NCBI GenBank assembly: GCA_016795485.1
Contig: JAEUHM010000021.1
Location: forward strand, 1 to 64,000
DNA: 64,000 nt
Reading direction: 5' to 3'
Source: Verrucomicrobiaceae bacterium
Lineage (GTDB): Bacteria > Verrucomicrobiota > Verrucomicrobiia > Verrucomicrobiales > Verrucomicrobiaceae
In this document: piece by piece, positions 23,878-25,797 of the stretch
Layout: the number at the start of each line of letters is the position of its first letter
Position numbering within the stretch: the stretch's first letter is position 1
The notes under the pieces: generated by a model
Told to the model about the DNA's origin: nothing
Database searches by the model: none
Seen by the model: only the letters and a program-made list of their open reading frames with translations
Translations under genes and position numbers: made by a program

Positions 23878-23921
23878 GGCATTGACCCTTCCTCAGCGAT
23901 CTCATGAATTGGCCGTTGAGT

Positions 23922-23949
23922 TTTCCACTATCGTGGTTAGGAGTCTAAT
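23922..23949 (+). promoter_or_regulatory. Candidate leuA promoter
   Basis: TTTCCA (23922-23927) and TCTAAT (23944-23949, 5 of 6 for -10) are 16 bp apart. Transcription would begin near 23956, only a few bases before the leader-peptide ATG at 23963, so the leader would be nearly leaderless. Confidence 0.35.
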
Positions 23950-23962
23950 TAGCGTTATTTTC

Positions 23963-24034
23963 ATGGGCATCCATTCGGCACAACTTAAGCTTCGACTCCG
24001 TCAGCACCTGCTGCTCGGGTTGGCCGCCCATTGA
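23963..24034 (+). CDS. leuL: Leucine-rich leader peptide upstream of leuA
   Basis: A 23-codon frame beginning MGIHSAQLKLRLRQ and ending HLLLGLAAH, with seven leucines including three consecutive codons (CTG CTG CTC). It lies 104 nt before leuA on the same strand. Short Leu-rich peptides before leucine biosynthesis genes are the classic sensors of ribosome-mediated attenuation. Between its stop and leuA there are small stems (CCGC/GCGG near 24047-24060 and AGGTC/GACCT at 24087-24105) that could be part of alternate folds, but no strong terminator with a T-run. The role is inferred from position and composition. Confidence 0.6.
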   Translation: MGIHSAQLKLRLRQHLLLGLAAH

Positions 24035-24138
24035 ACTTCACCTCACCGCCATTGTGCGGACGCTTCTAATCGCAAAATCTCGTTCCAGGTCCAAACTTTC
24101 GACCTCGGGCAACGTCTCCAAATCTTTTCAGTCACACC

Positions 24139-25797
24139 ATGTCCCCAAACAAATACCGTCCATTTCCCCCTATACCCATCCAGAACCGCCAGTGGCCTTC
24201 ACGCACGCTTTCGGCAGCCCCCATCTGGTGCAGTGTCGACCTCCGGGATGGAAATCAAGCTCTTGCAGTACCGATGAACGTCTCGCAAAAACTCGAGATG
24301 TTCGACTCACTCGTGAAGTGCGGATTTAAAGAGATTGAGGTGGGGTTTCCATCTGCATCGAACACTGAGTTTTCATTCAACCGAAGACTCATCGAGGACA
24401 ATCGCATCCCTGATGACGTTACAATCCAATGTTTGGTTCAAGCACGAGAACACCTTATTGAACGCACCGTGGAGTCGCTCATGGGTGCCAAAAGTGTCAT
24501 CATTCACATGTACAACTCCACATCGCCCGCCCAGCGGAAACATGTGTTCAACATGACGAAGGAGCAGATCATTGAAGTGGCTATTCAGGGAGCCAACTGG
24601 ATCAAAGAACGAATCCACCGGCTTGAGGATACAGGCACCAGAGTCATGCTACAATACTCTCCGGAGAGCTTCAGCGCTACAGAGGTAGAGTTCGCAAAAG
24701 AAGTCTCCGAGGCGGTCATGGATGTATGGCAGCCAACCGTTGAACGGAAGATGATCCTCAATCTGCCGGACACAGTCGAGGTGGCAGGACCCAATGTCTA
24801 CGCGGACCAGATTGAGTGGATTTGCAGCCACATTCGTAACCGCGAGGCACTGCTCATATCACTGCACACTCACAACGACCGTGGCACCGGCACGGCGGCC
24901 ACGGAACTTGGCTTGTTGGCGGGTGCTGATCGCGTGGAAGGCACACTCTTCGGTAATGGAGAACGCACAGGCAATCTCGATATCGTTCAAACGGCCATGA
25001 ATCTCTATATGCATGGGATTGATCCCAAGCTGAACTTCAGTGACATGAACGGCCTGATTGGTATGTATGAACGCTGCACTGGAATGACGGTGCCTCCGCG
25101 TCAGCCTTATGCTGGGGAGTTGGTTTTCACCGCTTTCAGTGGCAGCCATCAAGACGCCATTAAGAAAGGTCTCGCCAACTACGAGAAAACAGGGGGCTCA
25201 TGGGATGTCCCCTACCTGACGATCGACCCTCACGACATTGGTCGCAAATATCAGGAGGTCATCCGCGTGAACTCACAATCTGGAAAAGGTGGTGTGGCCT
25301 ACCTTCTTGAAAGCGAGTTCGGCATTGAAATGCCCAAAGACATGCAAAGAGAGTTTGGCCCTATCGCCAACGATCTTGTAGACGCCCTCGGACGTGAAGT
25401 GACCGCAGCAGAGCTCAAAGCGATGTTCTGGAAGGAATACATCGAGCGCACATCTCCATACAGCCTGCATCATTTTCATGCAGACGGCGTGGATGGGGTA
25501 TTCCGATGCCGCAGTAGCTTGGTCATCTCCGGCAAAGAAGTCGGAGTTGCTGGAGAGGGCAATGGTCCCATCGCTGCATTTGTTCAAGCACTCGTCCAAG
25601 ATGCAGGTGCACCGGCATTTGAAGTCAGCAGCTACCGCGAACAATCGCTGAGTTCTGGAACCGAGGCCAGCGCTCTCGCGTTTATTCAAATCAAGCTCGC
25701 CGATGGTCGGGTTTGCTGGGGCGCAGGCACAGACACCAACATCGAGCTTGCCTCCATCAAAGCGGTCGTCAGCGCAATCAACCGCGCAACGGCCTAA
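24139..25797 (+). CDS. leuA: 2-isopropylmalate synthase
   Basis: A 552-residue enzyme of the longer LeuA type. The N-terminal HMGL-like TIM barrel has CSVDLRDGNQAL (residues 32-43), KEIEVGFPSAS, MLQYSPESFSATE and SLHTHNDRGTG with metal-binding His243 and His245, then VEGTLFGNGERTGN. The C-terminal part (about 430-552) is the LeuA allosteric domain that binds leucine, with GNGPIAAFVQAL. It condenses acetyl-CoA with 2-oxoisovalerate, the first step of leucine synthesis in the cytoplasm. Regulation is probably double: feedback through the domain, and attenuation through the Leu-rich leader peptide 104 nt upstream. Confidence 0.95.
   Translation: MSPNKYRPFPPIPIQNRQWPSRTLSAAPIWCSVDLRDGNQALAVPMNVSQKLEMFDSLVKCGFKEIEVGFPSASNTEFSFNRRLIEDNRIPDDVTIQCLVQAREHLIERTVESLMGAKSVIIHMYNSTSPAQRKHVFNMTKEQIIEVAIQGANWIKERIHRLEDTGTRVMLQYSPESFSATEVEFAKEVSEAVMDVWQPTVERKMILNLPDTVEVAGPNVYADQIEWICSHIRNREALLISLHTHNDRGTGTAATELGLLAGADRVEGTLFGNGERTGNLDIVQTAMNLYMHGIDPKLNFSDMNGLIGMYERCTGMTVPPRQPYAGELVFTAFSGSHQDAIKKGLANYEKTGGSWDVPYLTIDPHDIGRKYQEVIRVNSQSGKGGVAYLLESEFGIEMPKDMQREFGPIANDLVDALGREVTAAELKAMFWKEYIERTSPYSLHHFHADGVDGVFRCRSSLVISGKEVGVAGEGNGPIAAFVQALVQDAGAPAFEVSSYREQSLSSGTEASALAFIQIKLADGRVCWGAGTDTNIELASIKAVVSAINRATA

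Follow-up and report, generated by a model that had tools for sequence, protein, structure and literature searches.

The enterobacterial leu attenuator (leuL; Rfam Leu_leader) is a Leu-rich leader with rare Leu codons positioned before leuA, with mutually exclusive hairpins. In actinobacteria, Streptomyces LeuL1 (MRFGLLLLSCRGEGL) is a Leu-run leader before leuA that is transcribed without a 5' UTR and has no typical terminator (PMC8079986), and the actinobacterial LEU element (Seliverstov et al., 2005, PMC1262725) combines a pseudoknot with a base stem that lies between the Leu-codon run and the Shine-Dalgarno (SD) site of leuA. The locus analyzed here lies in the window, i.e., the whole 64,000-nt stretch of DNA under analysis, from a Verrucomicrobiaceae genome of 6.5 Mb. 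Like the enterobacterial leuL, it has a Leu-rich leader with rare Leu codons before leuA and predicted exclusive hairpins, whereas it differs in having no relevant match to the Rfam covariance models (Leu_leader and all others), in its leuA type and RNA sequence, and in belonging to a family that mostly has no U-tract terminator. With the actinobacterial leuA leaders it shares a Leu-run leader and the lack of a typical terminator (PMC1262725, PMC8079986), and we regard these as its closest known counterparts; it differs from the LEU element in that the window does not form the characteristic base stem and its leuA has no SD-like site (PMC1262725). Leu leaders at similar spacing before the same leuA type also occur in Limisphaerales (L122, L123, L129) and in two further Verrucomicrobiota lineages (L095, L105, L107), where, unlike in the window, they end in a canonical U-tract terminator. 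Amino-acid attenuation is not described for Verrucomicrobiota in the literature searched, which includes few subscription papers, and an earlier report is possible. Most likely, the element belongs to a familiar class of switch and has an unusual ending, in bacteria for which we found no earlier report of it.

The window carries a short ORF rich in codons for the end product directly 5' of a gene of the pathway, a feature of ribosome-mediated attenuators (Table 1). The earlier note had described a 23-codon ORF with seven Leu codons, three of them consecutive, 104 nt upstream of leuA, and each of these elements is confirmed in the sequence: the Leu codons are CTT CTT CTC CTG CTG CTC TTG, and 104 nt separate the leader stop from the leuA ATG. 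When the 261-nt intergenic region was dinucleotide-shuffled, a comparable ATG-initiated ORF (10-40 codons, at least seven Leu codons and LLL) arose in 6 of 3000 shuffles, and in 34 of 3000 with any start codon allowed. The product of leuA is a type II isopropylmalate synthase of 552 aa. In two other genomes (L041 in G009 and L042 in G016), the reading frame of leuA is extended between KKG and WDVPYL by about 90-110 aa; these inserts appear unrelated to one another and have no intein-like junction residues, and inserts at this site in G313 and G289 are known from the search alone. The window genome also encodes a second isopropylmalate/citramalate synthase homologue (L051, G000:C7), and a short ORF, VIGFLLILLC, which lies 60 nt 5' of its likely start, may be an Ile/Leu leader peptide.

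Table 1. Features of the leuA leader locus, in window coordinates
Feature	Position	Strand	Remarks
Candidate promoter, TTGAGT-N16-TAGGAG	23916..23943	+	Weak; position comparable to the strong sigma70-like sites of relatives
Leucine leader peptide ORF	23963..24034	+	MGIHSAQLKLRLRQHLLLGLAAH, then stop; ATG start, kept in relatives
Leu-Arg-Leu with CGA-CUY pair (CTT CGA CTC)	23990..23998	+	Conserved among leaders
Three-Leu run, CTG CTG CTC (LLL)	24008..24016	+	Candidate control codons; sister-genus run comparable
Hairpin B / strand 2, GGGU-UGGCC-GCCC	24017..24029	+	Covers leader 3' end; equivalent strand invariant in sister genus
Hairpin C (3:4), CCGC-CAUUGU-GCGG	24046..24059	+	-5.6 kcal/mol (predicted); comparable sister-genus hairpin strongly covarying
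leuA, 2-isopropylmalate synthase, TIGR00970 / PRK03739 type	24139..25797	+	TIGR00970 706 bits, NF002991 798.5 bits

A lack of conservation of the Leu codons or of the frame in relatives had been named beforehand as a finding that would refute the proposal, and the outcome was in its favour: matched Leu-rich leaders were found before leuA throughout the family, with other forms across the phylum. We located leuA in 64 of 68 family genomes and read its upstream region in about 35 genomes first and in 26 more later; nearly all of these regions contain a Leu-rich leader ending about 100-150 nt 5' of leuA, and the leaders share a single peptide pattern, with peptides such as MTTPAKALLLLSLRLTLG, MISAFNALLGLSLLLLGVATR, MSLTVHSLNLLPGLLRLGLATH and MQGIRTELLLRLRLGLAAR, each complete to the stop codon. 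The leader is absent in a few family members, namely L015, L021 and L028, which belong to one genus, and L025; in the first three, leuA comes after the end of another gene, apparently that of ribosomal protein S9, and after the canonical terminator of that gene. Scans of leader peptides with Pfam and NCBIfam gave no match (of six Pfam queries, one had been extended with Gly to the minimum length). A run of four Leu codons in the sister genus (g9) and the genus next to it stays Leu through exchanges between CTT and CTC. Of the 174 Leu codons at the four run positions, 167 are CTT or CTC, compared with 32% of Leu codons in leuA itself at these loci, and CUU alone accounts for 57% of the run codons versus 4% of leuA Leu codons. 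The retention of Leu through these exchanges, together with the bias to rare codons, argues for selection on a translated run of rare Leu codons, and it seems that the ribosome senses mainly the Leu-tRNA isoacceptor that reads CUU/CUC.

Beyond the family, the leaders of Opitutaceae are short (MRNNAQALRLT, MRHIAQALRLT), a long stem, GACGCACGAUC..GAUCGUGCGUC, comes directly after them, and many of them contain just two to three Leu codons. In several other families, the leader ends in ..LLP with its stop codon inside the loop of CUCCCC-UGA-GGGGAG. Leu leaders also precede type I leuA, which belongs to a different gene lineage, in other families: ..AGLLLLVLGLAAH (L050), MNTLFLQGRLLLLLGR (L230) and MRQQGHIPAQLLNLLLLELGLDA (L231), all read to the stop; one type I leader ends LLLLVLGLAAH, much like that of the window. 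Spirochaetes, Chlorobiaceae and some Proteobacteria likewise have Leu-rich ORFs 5' of their type II leuA. Since leaders stand before different leuA types and in different lineages, their association is with leucine synthesis and not with one inherited gene neighbourhood.

Upstream of the leader in the window, TTGAGT (23916-23921) and TAGGAG (23938-23943) form a promoter-like pair 19 nt 5' of the leader ATG, with a rival -10 sequence, TCTAAT, at 23944-23949; a stricter promoter scan of the window locus did not match the candidate pair. Comparison with relatives revealed sigma70-like sites (for example, TGGACA-N16-TAGCAT) at 17 of 59 leaders relative to 1.0 expected from shuffles, mostly 8-14 nt 5' of the leader start. 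Because most of these sites lie so close to the leader, its translation would begin almost at the very 5' end of the transcript. Promoter sites upstream of the leader are clear in relatives, and the site in the window itself is weak.

The RNA that follows the leader was analyzed in the sister genus, where a 78-nt element occurs once per genome, before leuA. In an alignment of 42 sequences from this genus and its neighbour (A3), about 27 nt 3' of the leader stop are almost invariant, and after this stretch comes a hairpin C with the consensus UGCCGU-CACGUC-ACGGCA. Five of its seven pairs are changed on both sides, and none of 500 shuffles reached its covariation score. Variation in the 5' strand of hairpin C (strand 3) affects four columns and is nearly always a C/U exchange; in 99.6% of cells, strand 3 can still pair with strand 2, the nearly invariant GGCGGC by the leader stop. 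This pattern is as expected if strand 3 must keep two alternative partners, strand 2 and strand 4, which is the 2:3 versus 3:4 logic of an attenuator. The 2:3 helix showed no two-sided changes and did not exceed its shuffle control, and with so little variation in strand 2, this test taken by itself gives no independent proof. Hairpin A (CCCUGCG..CGCNAGGG) and the AGGGUAGGCG helix were set aside as candidates, as both are nearly always pairable yet almost invariant in the sister genus and so give no covariation evidence. In the genomes of the sister genera, a covariance model found a single strong copy each, just 5' of leuA, with all remaining matches far weaker; only one genome, which is fragmented, had two strong copies, and these are on separate contigs. 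The model (R1) did not recognize the diverged element of the window.

In the window, the corresponding parts are short; hairpin C has only 4 bp and no U-tract, and an alternative 2:3 pairing of UGGC in strand 2 with GCCA of strand 3 can be read from the sequence. The hairpin B pattern has its sole exact match in the window genome at the leuA leader locus. Folding of the region was no better than that of shuffles (z = -0.22), so that the stem sequences reported after the leader are weak in this single sequence and draw what support they have from comparison. In other family members, which differ in sequence, hairpins can be drawn over the end of the leader and further downstream, together with a possible 2:3 pairing, as in L030 and L031, where GGGU(U)GGCGG is pairable with CCGCCACCC.

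The family-wide leaders, the conservation of their codons, the pairing logic of the sister genus and the terminator-ended leaders elsewhere in the phylum lead us to read the element as a leucine-sensing, ribosome-mediated attenuator of leuA, with a probability, judged from sequence comparison, of about 0.82. The layout proposed in the earlier note is thereby supported, by conserved Leu-rich leaders before leuA and by promoters upstream of them in relatives. Points that speak against this reading are the unremarkable fold and 4-bp hairpin C of the window, the scarcity of U-tracts in the family, the 2:3 helix that stays within its shuffle control, the family members that have no leader and the low Leu content of many Opitutaceae leaders. 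We infer that the leader is translated and the ribosome stalls on it, as follows. The switch would work in the manner of classical amino-acid attenuators, with transcription starting a few bases 5' of the leader ORF. Under a shortage of leucyl-tRNA (mainly of the CUU/CUC isoacceptor, it seems), the ribosome would stall at the Leu codons and leave strand 2 near the leader stop free for 2:3 pairing with the 5' side of the hairpin; this would block the 3:4 hairpin, and leuA would be expressed. With leucine plentiful, the ribosome would reach the stop codon and cover strand 2, the 3:4 hairpin would form and expression would fall, in a last step that is most likely transcription termination helped by means other than a strong U-tract, i.e., a weak intrinsic site or Rho.

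A second conserved feature may refine this switch. Leaders of several families spell Leu-Arg-Leu as CTN CGA CTY: among 99 such motifs, which are not independent events because the sequences are related, CGA is used in 90, compared with 6-12% of Arg codons, and CTT or CTC comes next in 95. The CGA-CUY pair is also present in Opitutaceae leaders with few other Leu codons, and in view of this persistence it may be the actual stall or pacing site. Frameshifting (+1) at CUU-A was considered and dropped, since the window and several relatives have CUC. In the alphaproteobacterium Pelagibius (L186, a MAG), a candidate leader upstream of type II leuA, ..EALCLRLTGGRCA to its stop, contains CTGCGACTTACC, which resembles the verrucomicrobial CGA-CUU. 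In its fullest form, the proposal would be a Leu attenuator that has no intrinsic terminator and senses the CUU/CUC isoacceptor, and in which CGA-CUY, conserved from Verrucomicrobiaceae to Opitutaceae, would set the switch as a dedicated site of stalling or pacing; the switch would then act through Rho or another non-U-tract route. We consider this version rather doubtful.

The ending of the switch bears on whether leuA is controlled at transcription. Scanning of the window locus gave no terminator-like site, and the locus does not have the GC-rich hairpin plus U-tract of the intrinsic-terminator subtype of attenuator; the lack of a classic terminator was thus correctly seen for this lineage, since such sites are rare family-wide. 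They follow 10 of 46 leaders in the sister genus and its neighbour (3.6 expected) and 2 of 13 in the rest of the family. Canonical terminators do occur in these genomes, as after the gene next to leuA in L015, L021 and L028. By comparison, all six Limisphaerales leaders score with a terminator-like site, five of them as a clear hairpin with U-tract, and the scanned region holds such a site in four of six leaders from two other Verrucomicrobiota lineages. The rarity of these sites beside a kept leader and hairpin suggests that the family retains leader and switch hairpin and mostly not the U-tract. This scarcity would fit a mode, raised as an alternative in the earlier note, in which translation of leuA is controlled; the position of the leader ribosome would act by start accessibility or re-initiation and with no premature termination. 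So would the actinobacterial LEU element before leuA, which also has no canonical terminator and for which involvement of the SD has been proposed (PMC1262725). We consider translational control unlikely. Hairpin C lies about 75-90 nt 5' of leuA and excludes the start codon; it coincides with all ten terminator-like matches of the sister genera, a few of which have real U-tracts, and terminators are in use in other lineages. No SD-like site was present at the leuA start when one was looked for, so there is none to mask; SD masking is unlikely and was rejected. Few SD-like sites precede the long ORFs of the window (1-64000), where a C- and pyrimidine-rich sequence stands before many start sites. 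A Rho site was also sought by C-over-G skew: within the window, the 80 nt 5' of leuA rank at the 97th percentile, yet several other gene upstream regions are equally skewed, which makes the skew unspecific, and this candidate was dropped.

That the conserved RNA block is instead a riboswitch or a protein-binding element, with the Leu-rich ORF as a by-product, could be argued from the near-invariance of the 27 nt past the leader stop in the sister genus, from the conservation of CGA-CUY at the nucleotide level and from the preference of Seliverstov et al. for a protein at the LEU element (PMC1262725). We regard it as very improbable, since Leu codons exchange synonymously with Leu kept and the Leu-rich leader persists in lineages with very different RNA sequence; a T-box or riboswitch was rejected for want of an Rfam match. 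A chance ORF in an intergenic region, to which the unremarkable single-sequence fold might point, has a negligible probability, being refuted by the rarity of such ORFs in shuffles and by family-wide conservation.

Taken as leucine-sensing attenuation, the comparison predicts regulation of leuA across a large and little-studied phylum. It places Leu leaders before two different leuA types, and presents one lineage that retains the leader and mostly not the U-tract terminator. The strict use of CUU/CUC, together with CGA-CUY, provides directly testable claims on the tRNA and the codon that the switch would read.
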